NCBI RefSeq assembly: GCF_013348805.1
Contig: NZ_CP054690.1
Span: forward strand, 4,712,001 to 4,776,000
Reading direction: 5' to 3'
Origin: Rhodococcus sp. W8901
GTDB taxonomy: Bacteria > Actinomycetota > Actinomycetes > Mycobacteriales > Mycobacteriaceae
DNA length: 64,000 nt
Shown: piece by piece, positions 33,481 to 40,614 of the stretch
Numbering within the stretch: the first letter of the stretch is position 1
Layout of the letters: every line of letters starts with the position of its first letter
Notes under the pieces: generated by a model
Database searches by the model: none
Told to the model about the DNA's origin: nothing
What the model saw: the letters and a program-made list of their open reading frames with translations, nothing else
Position numbers and translations under genes: made by a program

Positions 33481-33567
33481 TGCGCAGCTCACACCCGAAC
33501 CTTGTGGCACGAGCGTGCCGCAGCGGGCAGAGTCGAGGGTGAAGGCTCACCGAGGATCGGAGCAGAC

Positions 33568-33978
33568 ATGCAGGACCGGACAAACCCCGTCGCCGCTCTC
33601 ACCGAACAGGACGCGCTGGACCTGTTGTCCACCGAACGCCTCGGTCGGCTCATCCTCGTCACCGACGACCGGCCGGATGTTTACCCGGTCAACTACGTGG
33701 TGCACGACGGCAAGATCTACTTCCGTACCGCCGAGGGCGACAAGCTCACCGAGCTCACACTCAAGCCGATGACCACGTTCCAGGTCGATCACGCCGACGC
33801 GACGTCGGCGTGGAGCATCGTGGTCCACGGCATCGCGCGCACCCTCGTGCGGTTCGACGAGATCAACGCCGCCGAGGAGTTCGCTCTGCAGTCTTGGGTG
33901 CCGACCGCGAAGTACAACTTCGTCGAGATCCGTCCGACGGAGATCCACGGCCGCCGCTTCGTGCTCGACCGGGGTTAG
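33568..33978 (+). CDS. PPOX-fold flavin/F420-binding protein
   Basis: This 136-residue split-barrel protein of the pyridoxamine 5'-phosphate oxidase-like group (Pyridox_ox_2) has ERLGRLILVTDDRPDVYPVN and YFRTAEGDKL at the N-terminal strands, and VHGIARTLV later. Such proteins bind FMN, F420 or haem, and the cofactor is not determined here. ATG 33568 has GGAG 6-7 nt upstream. It stands alone. Confidence 0.82.
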   Translation: MQDRTNPVAALTEQDALDLLSTERLGRLILVTDDRPDVYPVNYVVHDGKIYFRTAEGDKLTELTLKPMTTFQVDHADATSAWSIVVHGIARTLVRFDEINAAEEFALQSWVPTAKYNFVEIRPTEIHGRRFVLDRG

Positions 33979-34110
33979 CTTGCTGGGTCCCGGATCGAGA
34001 GACGCCGAAAGGCGACTACCGACCGTGACACCGCCGTCACTGGATCGTCGACGGGAACATCGTCAGCGCTCCGGTGAAGTTCGCCGTTCTCGAAGCCCTG
34101 CCGCGCAGGG

Positions 34111-34848
34111 TCAGAACGGGACAGCCGTGACCACAACGTTCTCGAGATAGGTACCGTGCCCGTTGGAGTCCTTGACGACCTCTCCCCCGCACGTCACCAG
34201 GTGCAGTTCCCTCGGACCACCCGCTCCCTGGAACGCCCACTCTGGCAACGCCTGCTTGACGAACCGCTCCATCCGGGTGATCTTCCAACGGGTGACCACA
34301 CCCTCCTTCGTCAGGTAGACGGCGTCACCCGGGTAGAGGGTGTGCATCCAATACAGTGCTCCCTCACCCTGATTCGCGTTGTCCACATGCCCGGCCACCA
34401 GGATCCCGCCGTCCGGCGCGGTTATCGGCGCCGACCCGGTCCAGTACGTCACCTGACTCACCTCGCGCGGCAACAACAGACTCCCGTCCGACGCCAAGCC
34501 CAGCGGATCCAACGCGGTCTCCACCCCGATCGCCGGGATCACCAGATGGTTGTCCGGCAGCGGACCGACCGGAACCTGCGGCCGACCCGCGGGGTTCGCC
34601 GATGCCGGACCCGGCTTGTGTGCCATGCTGCCGGCGCCGATCGCCGGCGCCGCACCGTCGACAGGGTCCGCCACACCGTCAGGTGACAGATCGAACGTCA
34701 ATTCCGGCACCGGCGCGGCCGATGCCGACTCGGGCTGCATCCCCCGAAAAACCAGCAGACCACCGCCGATGAGCAGTACCAACGCGATCACAATCATCGC
34801 GACCGAACCGGTCCGACCCGACTCTCTTTGTGCGGTATGTCTGCTCAC
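34111..34848 (-). CDS. Sortase-family transpeptidase with atypical active site
   Basis: This 245-residue membrane-anchored protein has one N-terminal helix (VAMIVIALVLLIGGGLLVF), a Pro/Ala-rich linker and a class E/F-like sortase barrel from about residue 95. The catalytic His is in ILVAGHVD (His154) and the Cys in LHLVTCGG (Cys220). The third conserved residue, an Arg in the strand after the Cys (usually YR-N-V-V), seems replaced: the sequence here is HGTYLENVVV, with Leu235. The GTG start has GGAGGGA 7 nt upstream. It lies 120 bp downstream of a large surface adhesin on the same strand, its obvious partner. Confidence 0.85.
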   Translation of the reverse strand: MSRHTAQRESGRTGSVAMIVIALVLLIGGGLLVFRGMQPESASAAPVPELTFDLSPDGVADPVDGAAPAIGAGSMAHKPGPASANPAGRPQVPVGPLPDNHLVIPAIGVETALDPLGLASDGSLLLPREVSQVTYWTGSAPITAPDGGILVAGHVDNANQGEGALYWMHTLYPGDAVYLTKEGVVTRWKITRMERFVKQALPEWAFQGAGGPRELHLVTCGGEVVKDSNGHGTYLENVVVTAVPF

Positions 34849-34874
34849 GATGGAATCCCTCCGGTCACAAAGAG

Positions 34875-34886
34875 TTTGGCGGACAA
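34875..34886 (-). promoter_or_regulatory. 12-mer shared with the adhesin upstream region
   Basis: TTTGGCGGACAA (minus strand TTGTCCGCCAAA) lies 27 nt upstream of the sortase start. The identical 12-mer, in the same orientation, occurs at 37773-37784 upstream of the adhesin. It may be a common regulator site or part of a promoter. Confidence 0.4.
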
Positions 34887-34890
34887 CCGA

Positions 34891-34921
34891 GTGGCCCGAG
34901 ACGGTTCACGTCCCGGGCCAC
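34891..34921 (-). terminator. Hairpin between adhesin and sortase genes
   Basis: GTGGCCCG and CGGGCCAC form an 8-bp stem around 15 nt, 48 nt after the adhesin stop. It may weaken read-through so that sortase is made in lower amount than its substrate. Confidence 0.45.
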
Positions 34922-34968
34922 CCGATCACTCATCAGAGCGCGTCACATGTGTTCTGTGACATCACTCG

Positions 34969-37665
34969 TCACTGATTGCCCTGATTGCGCCGGCGCAGTG
35001 CCACGAACAGCACACCACCCGCAGCGACCAGCAGCGCCAGACCACCGGCGACCAGTCCGGCGTTCATGCCACCGTCACTGTCGGCGCCCAGACCGGAGTC
35101 GATCAGTGCACCCTTCCCGGAGTCCGAGTTGCCGGTCGTTCCCTGATTCCCGGAGTTGTCCGGGGTTCCGGGAGTACCCGGGGTTCCGGGAGTACCCGGG
35201 GTTCCGGGAGTACCCGGGGTTCCGGGAGTACCCGGGGTTCCGGGAGTACCCGGGGTTCCGGGAGTACCCGGGGTTCCGGGAGTACCCGGGGTTCCGGGAG
35301 TACCCGGGGTTCCGGGAGTACCCGAGCCCAACGAGCCAGCCGAACCGGCCGCAAGGGAACCCGCCGCAAGGGAGCCAGCGCCCAGCGCCAGCGAGCCGGC
35401 GCCCAGCGAGCCGAGGCTACCGGTTCCGATTGCGCCGCAGTCGTCGCTGCCCGAACCACCGGTGCTGCCCAGGCTGCCCAGGCTGCCGGTCGAGCCCGTA
35501 CCGAGGCTGCAATCGGCCTGCTTGACGAACCCGAAGTCGAGCGTCAGATCCTCGTCACCGATGTTCGGCAGGTTCTCCGACGTCGCCTCCCACGTGTTCG
35601 ACCATCCGGAGCGATCACCCTCGTGCTCCTTGGTCGGCTCGAAGCCCTTCAGCGCCTTCTCGGTGGATTCGTCATCGCGGACGATCTTCACCATGTACTT
35701 CTGGGCGGGTGCCAAGTCCGTGAAGATGTACTTGCCGTTCGAATCGGTCGTGGTCGTGTTGGTGTAGGGCTCACCCAGGTAGTTCTGCGTCACCGGGGTT
35801 CCGTCCTCGTTGAGGACCTGCAGCACCACACCACCGATGCCCGGCTCGCCGTCGTCCTGGCGCCCGTTCTTGTTCTTGTCGAACCAGACGTAGTCGCCCA
35901 CGGTCACCGCGCCGAGCTTGGTGTACTTGTTGTTCGCCACCAAGTCGGTGCTCTTGTCGGAGACGGTGAACTCCACCGGAGAGCTGGCAATCTCCCCGTC
36001 GATGGTCCAGGTCGTCGTCAACACGGTGCCTGAGACCTCGTGGGCCTTCTCCGCGACGGTGCATTTGGTACCGGCCGGGATCTCACCGATGGTGAAGGAT
36101 TCTCCACCCTTGATCTCCCGCGACCCCAAGATGTCGCCACACACGTACTCGAACGTGAACTTCACGTCCCCGACCAGGCCGGCCCCGTCACCCGAGACCG
36201 CCTTGCCGACCGTGAACGCACCCAGCACCGGCTTCTTGACGAAGCCGAAGTCGAGGGTCAGATCCTCGGCGCCGGCCTTCGGCAAGTTCTCCGAGGTCGC
36301 CTCCCACGTATTCGACCATCCGGCGCGATCACCCTCGTGCTCGCGCGTCGGTTCGAGGCCGGCGAGGGCCTTCTTCGTGGATTCGTCTTCCCGATCGATC
36401 TTGACGACGTACTTGTGGCCGGGCTTCAGGCCGGTGAACAGGTACAAGCCGGTCGCATCGGTCGTGGTCGTGTTGTCGAACGGCTGATCTCGGTAGTCCT
36501 TGGTAACCAAGGTGCCGTCCTCGTTGTAGACCTTCAGCACAACGCCGGGGATCCCGGGCTCGCTGGGATCCTGTCGTCCGTCCTTGTTCTCGTCGAGCCA
36601 CACCAGGTCGCCGACAGTCGCCGACTTGCTGCCGACACCGTCGCCGCCAGAGCCGGCACGCTTGATCTCGGCGGACTTGTCGACGCCGTTGATGCTCACG
36701 GTGTTCTTCAGCGGATCCCGCTTGTTCCACTCCGCGGTGAGGTCGCCGTCGAACGAGATGACGAAGTTCTCGTCCTTCGCGAGCGTCGGCCGACCGCCGA
36801 CCGGCTGGAACGTGACCGTCACACCGCTCGCGCTGCAGTCGACGATGTACCGGTTCGTATCCACATCGACGTACCTCGACGACCTGAAGTCGTAGCTCGT
36901 GACCTTGACGGTGCTGCAGTTCGGGACCCATCCATGCTGAGACTCGTCCTTAATGACGAAGTTCCCGCTGGTGAAGTCCTGCTTCTGCGTCTCGACGGTG
37001 ATCGTCCAACCGATCTGCTTCTCGAGCGACTCCGAACCCTGGTTGGGGTCCTTCCAGGAGCCGAACTTGTTGTTGTCGACCCGGGTCGCCGTACCCCCGG
37101 TTTCGCCCAGGACGACGCCGGGCAGCTGGCCCTGTCCGCACCCGCCGAACTGCAGGTTGTAGCGGGTATCGGCGCTCGGGCGGCCGACGACGGTCTCGTC
37201 CCACGCGACCGATGCCCACGCCGTGCCGTGAACATTGGAATGCGTGTCGGCGTAGTCGGTCAGGGTGAATGCGAGCGTGTTACCCGTCCACACACCCGTG
37301 GCAACCAACTTGCCGTCCGGCGATTTCAGGTCGATATCCTGCCGGTTGACGGGCTTGAGCTGCGGTGGCAGGGCGAAGTCGAAGGACGTCCCGGCCTTCG
37401 CGCCATTGGCGACATGCCAGTCGAACTCGAGCTCGGTACCGAACTGCCCGGTCCCGTACTCGGTGTACGCGCCGTCCTTGATGTTCGGGGCGCCCTGTCG
37501 CCACTTGACGTCCGACCAACCACCGCTTCCACAACTGGCGGGCTCGGCCTGTGCAACTCCCTGAGCGCCAGGCAAGATCACGAGCCCGGAGAAAGCAAGT
37601 ACCAGTGCGAACACACCAAGGAGGAGCCTCCGAGCCGCGCTGTACGCAGCTGTGAAGCCAGTCAT
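34969..37665 (-). CDS. Cell-wall-anchored adhesin: MSCRAMM-like head, SdrD B repeats, (TPG)n stalk, sorting signal
   Basis: This 898-residue protein has a Sec signal peptide (1-40, cut after AQA). Residues ~45-340 resemble the Ig-like ligand-binding region of MSCRAMM adhesins ([28 protein letters not shown]). Two SdrD B-like domains (~349-478 and ~587-714; [16 protein letters not shown] / [16 protein letters not shown], each with a Ca-loop-like Asp-rich turn) flank a DUF5979-like domain (~483-585). A Ser-Leu-Gly-rich region (720-782), 17 TPG triplets plus TP (783-835), then a LIDSG motif (854-858), hydrophobic helix and RRRNQGNQ tail follow. AAGGAAGG lies 4 nt before the ATG. It is probably a substrate of the adjacent sortase and exposed on the cell surface; the ligand is unknown. 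Confidence 0.85.
35164..35325 (-). repeat. Nine tandem 18-bp repeats encoding the TPG stalk
   Basis: The unit GGTTCCGGGAGTACCCGG (plus-strand view) repeats nine times almost without change, the last differing at the final base. Each unit encodes two Thr-Pro-Gly triplets. Near-identity at third positions indicates recent expansion or homogenisation, so length may differ between strains. Confidence 0.9.
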
Positions 37666-38267
37666 GTGGTTCCTTCCTTGTCATCGACCATGTCCCACAC
37701 CTGAGCGCTGAACGGCCGCCCCCGCGACCCATCGCGTCCTTCAGATCCCCACGAATATCGGACATTCCGCCTTTTGGCGGACAAAGCGGAGCGTAACTTG
37801 AGCCTTCTTCCATTAATAGTTCAGCAGTACGCGAAACCCCTGTTCGCGCGAATTTCACCCTGACGTTCACCCTTTCCAGTGGGCGAACACCCTCACCGAC
37901 GGGGCCGAATGTGTTCGGGGACACAGCAATAACGTGTGCGGGGTCACAGAAGTAGCGTCGCCGTCGTCGGCAGGCAACCTCCGAGGCGCCGGCATCTCAC
38001 GCTTGAGGCCCCGGAATCCATTGGCGTGATCCATGACTCATCGCAAGACCGATTGGTCGCGTTCCTGCGGGAGATTCGAGGGGGATCCTGGAAGGCCGAG
38101 ATCAATCCGCAGGGAAGAGCACTGCGGCGCAGCCACTTTCGAACCAGGTCCCCCGAATGTCACATCGCCACAATCGAACTCGCATATCCCATCAAGTCCG
38201 ATCTGGCGTAGACGACGTCCTCCCGATGAACGGATGACCGACGTCGGATGAGCGGTACTGCCGGAAG
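37666..38267. other. 602-bp gap without a convincing gene; adhesin upstream region
   Basis: No reading frame here has credible protein features. The part next to the adhesin holds the hairpin TCCGCCTTTTGGCGGA (37766-37781), which overlaps the 12-mer shared with the sortase upstream region. Two TTCACCCT direct repeats 12 nt apart lie at 37854 and 37866. A half copy of the 51-bp palindromic element (CCGAATGTCACAT) lies at 38153. The base composition is visibly less GC-rich in parts. It is the likely control region of the adhesin. Confidence 0.5.
37766..37784 (-). promoter_or_regulatory. Palindrome and shared 12-mer upstream of the adhesin
   Basis: TCCGCC-TTTT-GGCGGA is a perfect 6-bp inverted repeat. 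Its right arm is part of TTTGGCGGACAA, the 12-mer also found upstream of the sortase. It lies about 100 bp before the adhesin start. Confidence 0.4.
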
Positions 38268-39107
38268 TCAGTCCAGCCAGGTCAGCACGGTCGACGGCGG
38301 CAGTGCGAGCACCGACTCGGGCAGCCGGTCGCGCAGTCCGCGGTCGGCGGTCACGACGGCGGTGAGTGCCCCGCCGCCGGCCGCGAGCCGCGCCAGTTCG
38401 TCGTCGCCGCTGCCGGCGGCGGTGTGCACCGGGATCCGCGTGTCGACGTAGCCGGCGGCGCGGGCCTGTCCCTCGAGCACCGCCTCGATGCGCGGCAGCC
38501 ACCCGAATCCGCCGTCGGGCAGTTCGATCGTGCGGGGCAGGACCTGGGCGATCCGGTCCAGCAACTCCGTCGTGGCGCCCGGCCGATCGCGCCACCAACC
38601 GTTGGGCCGGGATCCGAGCACGTTCGCGGTGTCGAGCAGCACCCGCACCTCGGTGGTCCGCAGGCCCGGCCACGCGGTGGCGAAACCCGGATGCAGCGGC
38701 ATGTGCTCCACCTGGGCCTCGGGCACCCAGCGCAGCTCGGTGCTCTCCCCGTTCGGGACCAGTGCCAGCGTCTTGTCGGCGTCGGCGATCACCGTCGTGT
38801 ACGTCCAGCCGCCGGCGACACTCGCCGTCACCCGCTCGGTGCGCACATGGACCGCACCGACGTCGATACCGGTCTCCTCCTGCGCCTCGCGCACCGCGGC
38901 GTGGATCGTAGTCTCGTGGCTGTCCCGCGCGCCGCCCGGCAGCGCCCACGTCCCGCCCTGGTGACTCCACGCGGCACGGTGTTGCAACAGCACCCCGGCC
39001 GAACCGTCGGCCAACGGGGCACGCAGCAACAGCCCCGCCGCACCGTGCCGGCCCCAATGCCGTACCCCGTCGGGGGTCGTCGCCCAACCGTCTCCGTCAC
39101 CGCGCAT
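38268..39107 (-). CDS. mutT3: NUDIX hydrolase fused to a PIN/NYN-like domain
   Basis: In this 279-residue protein, residues ~15-150 are a NUDIX domain with the box GGARDSHETTIHAAVREAQE-ETG, matching M. tuberculosis MutT3 (Rv0413), which stands next to glnX in the same way. From ~160 a second domain begins: LLDTANVLGSRPNGWWRDR, later GDDELARLAAGG and VVTADRGLRDRLP. The spaced acidic residues resemble PIN/NYN-type RNase folds; M. tuberculosis MutT3 lacks this part as I recall it. It probably cleans oxidised nucleotides; the second activity is an inference. It is divergent from glnX. Confidence 0.8.
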   Translation of the reverse strand: MRGDGDGWATTPDGVRHWGRHGAAGLLLRAPLADGSAGVLLQHRAAWSHQGGTWALPGGARDSHETTIHAAVREAQEETGIDVGAVHVRTERVTASVAGGWTYTTVIADADKTLALVPNGESTELRWVPEAQVEHMPLHPGFATAWPGLRTTEVRVLLDTANVLGSRPNGWWRDRPGATTELLDRIAQVLPRTIELPDGGFGWLPRIEAVLEGQARAAGYVDTRIPVHTAAGSGDDELARLAAGGGALTAVVTADRGLRDRLPESVLALPPSTVLTWLD

Positions 39108-39264
39108 GGAGTGCCTCTCACCTGCCCTGTCCGCCGAGCCGCTCACCTGTCCCCACAGTATTCCCCGCCGCATCACGAATCGGCGGAACAACCTGCCGGT
39201 GCTGCTTATATGCTCGGCACTACGGAACGGCGAACCAAACGGACGGCGAACCGAGGTATGAGCC

Positions 39265-40614
39265 GTGGCAGTGCCGGAGACGACGACGGAGTCGACGCAC
39301 GCGGCGGACGCGAGGTGGGAGGACGCGCCGCCGAACCGCGCCGCCCGCGTCCACGTGCGCCCACACGCCGCGCGTGACCTGCTGCGATCGACACCCGCCC
39401 GCCTGCTCGCCGTCGGCGTCGCACTGCTGCTCGGCACCGTGGCGGCGGGTCTGATCGCCTCCATGGTGGCCGGCGAGCGCAAGCAGGACATCGACACCCT
39501 GTTGTCCACCACCGAGCCGCTGGCCCGATCGTCACAGAACCTGTACGCGTCGCTGTCGGTCGCCGATGCCGCCGCGGCCACCGCCTTCCTGTCCGGTGGC
39601 GTGGAACCGAGCGAGGACAGGGACCGCTATTCGCAGGCCATCGGGACCGCGGCCGCGGAGTTGGTCGCGACGTCGGACGGGCTGCCGGGCGACGACCAGG
39701 GCCGACGGCTGCTCACCGAGATCGCGACGAAGCTCCCGGTGTACACGGGGCTGGTCGAGACCGCACGCACCAACAACCGCGCCGGCAACCCGGTCGGCAC
39801 CGCGTACCTGGCGGAGGCGTCGGCGCTGATGCAGACGGACCTGCTGCCGTTGGCACAGGCCCTGCACACCGAACGTGCGGCCGCATCGCTGGCGCCGCAG
39901 TCCGGGTTCGCCCGCCCGCCGTGGTTCGCGATCGGGCTGCTCGTGGCATTGCTGGCCGCGCTGGTGGCGACGCAGGTGGTGCTGTCGAGGCGGACCAGGC
40001 GCACGTTCAACGCCGGGCTCCTGTTGACGACCACGGCCATGGCTGCGCTGCTGGTGTGGATGCTGGTCGCGGGGATCATCTCCGCGGTGTCGGCGCACGA
40101 AGCGGTCCGGCAGGGCTCCGAGCCGCTCTCGACGTTCGCGGCGGCGCGCATCCTCGCGCAGCAGGCCCGCACCCAGGAGATCCTGCAACTGGTCCGCCGC
40201 GACGAGAAGGCCGAGCACGCGCAGGTGTTCGTCGACGACACCGACCAACTGCGCAATCTGCTGGACAACTACTCGGTGGACGTCGGACGCGACGACGCCG
40301 ACCGGGCGGTGCAGGCGCTGGACGGCTGGACCGCGTCGCACCAACGCATGATCGACGCGCTCACGGTGGGCGACTGGACGGCCGCCGCCATGACGACGGT
40401 CGGTTCCGATCCCGCGACGGCGGCCTCGCAGTTCGACATCGTCGACGCCGCTCTGTCGGACGGCACCGAGGCCGCCCGCGCCGAACTGAGAGGCGACATC
40501 TCCCGTTCGTCGACGGTGCTGTCGGCTCTCGGGCCCGGCGCGCTGGTGCTCACGGTGGTCGCGGCCATCGGTATACCGGTGGGCCTGTGGCCCCGCCTGC
40601 GGGAGTACCAGTGA
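39265..40614 (+). CDS. glnX: GlnX-like membrane sensor protein
   Basis: This 449-residue protein has four membrane helices (near 48-68, 223-243, 253-275 and the C-terminus) that separate two helical extracytoplasmic domains. No kinase domain is present. The position directly before glnH and pknG identifies it as the Rv0412c/GlnX type, the membrane component proposed to pass the amino-acid signal from GlnH to PknG in mycobacteria. The GTG start has CGAGG upstream. The stop overlaps the glnH ATG by one base. Confidence 0.85.
   Translation: MAVPETTTESTHAADARWEDAPPNRAARVHVRPHAARDLLRSTPARLLAVGVALLLGTVAAGLIASMVAGERKQDIDTLLSTTEPLARSSQNLYASLSVADAAAATAFLSGGVEPSEDRDRYSQAIGTAAAELVATSDGLPGDDQGRRLLTEIATKLPVYTGLVETARTNNRAGNPVGTAYLAEASALMQTDLLPLAQALHTERAAASLAPQSGFARPPWFAIGLLVALLAALVATQVVLSRRTRRTFNAGLLLTTTAMAALLVWMLVAGIISAVSAHEAVRQGSEPLSTFAAARILAQQARTQEILQLVRRDEKAEHAQVFVDDTDQLRNLLDNYSVDVGRDDADRAVQALDGWTASHQRMIDALTVGDWTAAAMTTVGSDPATAASQFDIVDAALSDGTEAARAELRGDISRSSTVLSALGPGALVLTVVAAIGIPVGLWPRLREYQ

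Follow-up and report, generated by a model that had tools for sequence, protein, structure and literature searches.

The question raised by this locus is whether a sortase that seems to lack the arginine of its active site, encoded next to an adhesin that ends in LIDSG instead of LPxTG, constitutes a working surface-anchoring system or a decayed one. The pair lies in the stretch of DNA analyzed here (the window), which spans 64,000 nucleotides (positions 4712001-4776000 of contig NZ_CP054690.1) in the 5.71 Mb genome of Rhodococcus sp. W8901, hereafter the host genome. Both open reading frames were confirmed on the minus strand, with the sortase gene 120 bp downstream of the adhesin gene. With a probability of roughly three in four, we favor the reading that a dedicated class F-like sortase cleaves LIDSG and anchors the adhesin, so that the two genes would make up a self-contained surface-anchoring cassette. 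The observation is more than chance: the I-D-S-G residues are invariant in seven tails from Prescottella (here, the Rhodococcus equi group, with 14 genomes including that of the host), and all 28 pairwise ratios of nonsynonymous to synonymous substitution rates (dN/dS) from eight copies of the sortase gene fall between 0.10 and 0.22.

The sortase gene product belongs to the sortase superfamily (Pfam Sortase PF04203, 38.5 bits for a cut-off of 26.6) and retains, as the original prediction from the bare sequence had it, His154 and Cys220, both invariant across 24 aligned rows. That prediction also held that the expected arginine had been replaced by Leu235 and that the enzyme might be inactive; the first proposal is rejected and the second disfavored. 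Leu235 is ruled out as the lost catalytic residue by the alignment of class F and class E profiles (hhalign), which places the class E arginine on Asn237 with 98.6% probability. This arginine, nine residues past the Cys, is present in all 27 class E sequences retained by pattern from 32 loci, and the window sortase has no match to the class E model (NF033747). The same column was counted by alignment in 120 distinct class F-type sortases from fetched loci, a set biased towards the window's kin from which rows under 90 bits, or without G, A or S after the Cys, had been removed; it holds Asn in 117 of them and Arg in three. The position of Leu235 is variable in this set (R in 51, L in 24, including eight from Prescottella, and E in 23), and Leu occupies it in six sortases above the NCBI class F cut-off (L063, L070, L074, L076, L077 and L078). 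Since Asn is found in 117 of 120 sequences and has been reported to replace Arg in the class F enzymes of Actinobacteria (Malik et al. 2020, PMC6998099), the missing arginine is an already known feature of the class. The three sortases with Arg in the catalytic column (L086, L087 and L088, reading DRV or DRI) are the first branches of the tree and represent possible intermediates of the Arg-to-Asn change.

What marks the window's kin is that Arg is absent also from the other places where it is frequent. Across the 120 sortases, Arg is found at Cys-4 in 35, at Tyr-2 in 54 and at Tyr+1 in 51, and the window sortase, with no Arg at Cys-4, Tyr-2, Tyr+1 or Tyr+3, is among the 36 that lack it at all four places. 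Arg213 (Cys-7) is nearly invariant in a ten-row alignment of the window's kin and is expected to sit at the strand's far end. Sequence searches of the PDB found no close relative, and the solved class F structure 5UUS matched the class F-type set weakly (E 0.005), with an alignment that stops before the Cys; being so weakly related, it cannot decide the arginine question. The lack of Arg at the four places is what would be expected of a decayed or dead sortase, in which case the adhesin would stay in place through its membrane helix or be anchored by a different sortase. The same lack is nonetheless shared by all 36 of those sortases, the catalytic His and Cys are invariant, the sortase and the LIDSG-type tail occur in the same seven of the 14 Prescottella genomes, and the signature of purifying selection argues against an inactive enzyme. 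Because the dN/dS values and the conserved partner tails point the same way, an inactive sortase is disfavored, and we regard it as unlikely. The unusual sortase is probably not broken but one of a widespread set of sortases that have been little studied and have similarly tagged partners.

The tails of these partners bear on the nature of the signal. A hydropathy script run on neighboring open reading frames detected partners with a sorting-type C-terminus for 68 of the 120 sortases; at least one of these partners (L030) resembles an ordinary membrane protein. The motif [VI][DNE][TSAG]G is present in 29 of the 68 tails, for a mean of 2.4 and a maximum of 8 in 500 shuffles (related rows not being independent); 35 of the remaining 39 contain the looser [GA][VAI]x[AGTS]G, a form counted without a chance control and mostly realized as GVPGG or GVPAG, and four contain neither. 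L[PA]xTG was matched in a single tail (L165), inside the hydrophobic helix, and no convincing LPxTG was seen among the 68. Proline-free tails of the [V/I]-x-[T/S/A/G]-G type are thus usual beside the class F-type sortases sampled, and a proline-free signal like the LIDSG, with helix and RRR, that the original prediction had correctly read in place of LPxTG is not particular to this pair. Given these tails and the existence of an NCBIfam model for a GVDTG sorting domain, which matched two of the seven partners submitted (both under its cut-off), LIDSG seems to be one form of a proline-free signal common to the class. Literature searches found no paper on GVDTG that, judging by title, deals with sortases and, for IDSG and sortase, nothing beyond a Bifidobacterium review. 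As a separate observation, one VNSG-tailed partner of a class F sortase (L163 2722-3456, genome G292) is similar to the chromoproteins of enediyne antibiotics, narrowly missing the cut-off of the NF040680 model (83.6 of 86 bits), and is possibly a wall-anchored neocarzinostatin-like protein.

Within Prescottella, the sortase (79-83% identical) was found in seven of the 14 genomes, and the LIDSG-type tail (KIDSG in genome G009) in the same seven; close relatives of the sortase occur in five named records, Prescottella defluvii, P. agglutinans, P. equi DSM 20307, Rhodococcus hoagii and Rhodococcus sp. OK519. The host genome carries two copies of this sortase and two LIDSG-type adhesins, in pairs, and an LIDSG-type adhesin directly adjoins a class F-like sortase at the host second locus and in G002, G003 and G009. 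At the host second locus and in G002, this pair has as neighbors an LPVTG protein and a class E sortase, the latter with the Arg in the host genome. G011 (R. equi DSM 20307) and G013 show another order, in which the LPVTG protein and then the class E sortase come between the LIDSG adhesin and the class F-like gene. In G010, the adhesin has the LPVTG and class E genes next to it and is separated by about 44 kb from the class F-like gene. These arrangements are what one would expect if the class E enzyme processed the LIDSG protein and the class F-like enzyme had another substrate. Weighed against the direct pairing in the four other loci, against an insert in the window that contains just the adhesin and the class F-like gene, with the class E matches of the genome elsewhere, and against the restriction of the tail, among the 14 genomes, to those with the class F-like sortase, we consider such a division of labor improbable. 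Letek et al. (2010, PMC2947987) described two sortase islands, srt1 and srt2, in R. equi 103S, the latter with an LPVTG protein, and we infer that the LPVTG/class E/LIDSG locus is the srt2 locus.

Two further observations concern this distribution. In G013, three more surface proteins with DUF7507 repeats end in RIDSG or LIDAG (L212, on contig C10, 95-4066 and 4292-4972; L211 4311-5942; L213 490-4323), and one of them adjoins a further class F-like sortase, whose loop is long and free of Arg. In G001, a class F-like sortase match extends over two frames (G001:C19:24229-24842), perhaps a broken gene.

The cassette, presumably of horizontal origin, seems to have entered in one piece between two genes that are neighbors elsewhere in Prescottella. 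The flanks abut (at most 44 nt between the aligned parts) in all 11 of the other genomes compared, the remaining two having no match to the first flanking gene. The insert has a G+C content of 64.2%, for 69.0% in the window. Besides the two genes it holds segments of about 132, 120 and 600 bp, and a transposase could therefore not fit in it. No convincing terminal inverted repeats of the insert were found (direct repeats were not searched for), and a scan for promoters and terminators yielded nothing above shuffles. Duplication within the genome is an unlikely origin for the pair, since the host second sortase groups with the copies of G010, G011 and G013 (91-93 in the Shimodaira-Hasegawa-like approximate likelihood ratio test, SH-aLRT) and the window sortase falls outside, nearest by path to that of G002. 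The tail endings split the copies likewise, with NQG[N/S][Q/E] in the window, G002, G003 and G009, and GDVTDL in the host second copy, G010, G011 and G013.

The adhesin itself looks chimeric. Its description as an MSCRAMM/SdrD-like protein adjoining a sortase is borne out by the gene coordinates and by Pfam, with SdrD_B (two stretches), Big_8 and DUF5979 all over their cut-offs and hence an Ig-like head together with SdrD_B, although it scores far under the cut-offs of the NCBIfam SdrC and SdrD models (73.2 of 1700 and 63.6 of 2500 bits). The seven other LIDSG-type adhesins of Prescottella, one in each of six other genomes plus the host second copy, all carry SpaA_3 and DUF7507 repeats, in the place of which the window adhesin has its MSCRAMM-like head. 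A search with the first 490 residues (E <=1e-6) found relatives of the head in six of 150 other genomes and in none of the 13 other Prescottella genomes, and the three relatives followed to their C-terminus end in LAFTG, LAMTG and LASTG. The window adhesin is thus a Prescottella LIDSG anchor joined to an MSCRAMM head undetected in the other 13 genomes of the group and, as the same anchor bears different heads and relatives of the head sit on other tails, heads move between anchors. That such heads would be unexpected in a mycolic-acid bacterium, as first supposed, finds no support, since MSCRAMM-like domains are no strangers to the order: Big_8 and DUF5979 occur in the LPVTG protein of the host genome itself, and relatives of the head in those six genomes, even if none of them lies within the genus. 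The perfect 18-bp repeats of the stalk (Table 1) suggest in addition that stalk length may differ from strain to strain.

Taken together, these data suggest a real and dedicated sortase-adhesin cassette that probably works, with a divergent class F-like enzyme and a proline-free signal. The adhesin would be exported and then retained in the membrane by its C-terminal helix, whereupon the class F-like sortase would attack through Cys220, with His154 as acid/base, cleave between Ser857 and Gly858 of LIDSG and join the adhesin to a cell-wall precursor; a role in adhesion is presumed. The transition state would be stabilized without the canonical beta-8 Arg, with Asn237 in its place, as in actinobacterial class F enzymes generally. 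A pilus-type polymerizing system, in which the sortase would link adhesin subunits together, is very unlikely: it fits the SdrD_B and SpaA-like domains and the RrgB-like isopeptide domain matches in relatives, but the insert has a single substrate-type gene (no search for pilin motifs or minor pilins was made).

The wider significance of the pair depends on its place among class F-type sortases. Trees were built by a short search from 120 sortases with four class E sequences as outgroup, without the tails but with the loop columns; their deep forks are weak, and many rows came from a search with a profile of the window's kin. Two trees place the window sortase in an identical group of 23 rows (SH-aLRT 92, then 98), which stands beside, not inside, the core of the curated class F, in a set of rows chosen by similarity to the window's kin. 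Arg is absent at the four places in 21 of the 23 members (the exceptions being L012 and L163), as opposed to 15 of the 97 sortases outside, and [I/V]-[D/N]-[S/T/A/G]-G is found in 15 of the 16 partners detected for the group, as opposed to 8 of 52 outside (5 of 52 once tails matching G[VA]x[TASG]G are left out). We suggest, tentatively and at slightly less than even odds, that actinobacteria harbor a sortase subfamily that works without active-site-loop Arg and reads [I/V]-[D/N]-[S/T/A/G]-G and that, together with the related class F enzymes ([V/I]-x-[T/A/G]-G), would form a second, Arg-independent code beside the Arg/LPxTG code in the same cell, with exchangeable adhesin heads.

Several observations weigh against the interpretation put forward here. 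The one NCBIfam model that matches the sortase at E <=0.1, class F NF033748, gives 75.8 bits, under its cut-off of 166, and the tail stays under the cut-off of every NCBIfam sorting model, including the LPXTG anchor TIGR01167 (13.0 bits for 15.9, with LIDSG instead of LPxTG as its motif) and the GVDTG sorting domain NF058571 (12.6 bits for 29). No partner was found for 52 of the 120 sortases, given short flanks and a strict filter, and in three genomes (G010, G011 and G013) the class F-like sortase does not directly adjoin the LIDSG adhesin. A figure legend in PMC8361268 assigns the conserved triad to the solved class F structure 5UUS as well, and a 2026 report states that deletion of four class F sortases gave no phenotype. 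Lastly, the idea that loop and signal were co-adapted in events of their own is unsupported by the three well-supported independent pairs available (one in the first tree), within which the loop trait is mostly equal, and is not separable from common descent. The original prediction of a co-adapted signal and sortase thus holds in so far as they co-occur, both in the same seven Prescottella genomes and in the tree subgroup; the joint change of loop and signal has no support beyond common descent. The co-occurrence of tail and sortase that was proposed as support for a distinct system is observed, but within a broader, partly known class.

If class F enzymes do recognize proline-free [V/I]-x-[T/S/A/G]-G tails on the products of neighboring genes, the consequences extend beyond this locus. 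A 2026 paper describes the physiological roles of class F sortases as unknown, and its substrate search, as laid out there, accepted only LPXTG, NPXTG, SPXTG, PPXTG, LPXTA and LAXTG motifs (PMC13251363); motif searches of this kind would overlook such substrates, and pairs like the window cassette would become directly testable enzyme-substrate assignments. A sortase working without Arg would also matter for protein-ligation tools and for the understanding of catalysis.

Table 1. Features of the sortase-adhesin cassette and its flanks (window positions).
Feature	Position	Strand	Remarks
Class F-like sortase, 245 aa, GTG start	34111..34848	-	N-terminal hydrophobic segment; His154, Cys220, Leu235, Asn237 (catalytic-Arg column)
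Catalytic His154 codon (AGHVD)	34387..34389	-	invariant, 24-row alignment
Catalytic Cys220 codon (VTCGG)	34189..34191	-	invariant, 24-row alignment
Asn237 codon, aligned to class E catalytic Arg	34138..34140	-	hhalign, class F vs class E
Surface protein, 898 aa, ATG start	34969..37665	-	hydrophobic N-terminus, Gly/Ser- and PGT-rich stalk, LIDSG sorting signal
Adhesin domains			residues: Big_8 75-160; DUF5979 484-582; SdrD_B two stretches (best 588-713)
18-bp tandem repeat, 9.2 perfect copies	35160..35324	-	in the part that codes for the (PGT)n stalk
LIDSG sorting motif, residues 854-858	35092..35106	-	I-D-S-G invariant in 7 Prescottella tails
Sorting-signal hydrophobic helix (~869-890) and RRR (891-893)	34987..35061	-	by inspection and hydropathy, not a topology program
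4.29-kb inserted segment with both genes	33975..38267		site empty in all 11 other Prescottella genomes compared
PNPOx-type flanking gene	33502..33978	+	
NUDIX flanking gene	38268..39581	-	

Among the known systems closest to the pair are the actinobacterial class F sortases (NF033748; Malik et al. 2020), with which the window sortase shares the fold family, the His and Cys, a CGG starting at the Cys, the Asn in the Arg column and an adjoining substrate-type gene; it differs from them in its score (75.8 bits for a cut-off of 166), in a Cys-to-Tyr loop longer than most and in the absence of Arg at Cys-4, Tyr-2 and Tyr+1. Class E sortases, such as SrtE1 of Streptomyces coelicolor, are likewise actinobacterial and linked to a signal other than LPxTG; with their LAxTG/LPxTG substrates, however, they retain the Arg (27/27 here) and read L-[A/P]-x-T-G. 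The tail resembles the GVDTG sorting domain (NF058571) in its proline-free [V/I]-x-[T/S]-G, hydrophobic helix and basic end, and GVDTG-type tails are present beside class F sortases in our set, but it falls short of the model (12.6 vs 29 bits) and LIDSG lacks the GGV context. The adhesin shares Big_8 and SdrD_B, a repetitive stalk and a C-terminal sorting signal with the MSCRAMM adhesins SdrC and SdrD; the stalk of Sdr proteins is formed by SD repeats, whereas that of the window adhesin is of the PGT/GS type, with an additional DUF5979 and LIDSG replacing LPxTG. The srt1 and srt2 islands of R. equi 103S, finally, also combine sortase genes with putative substrates, one of them with an LPVTG protein, and are described as horizontally acquired; the passages that deal with them name LPxTG-type signals only, whereas the LIDSG cassette of the window constitutes a further insertion at another site.

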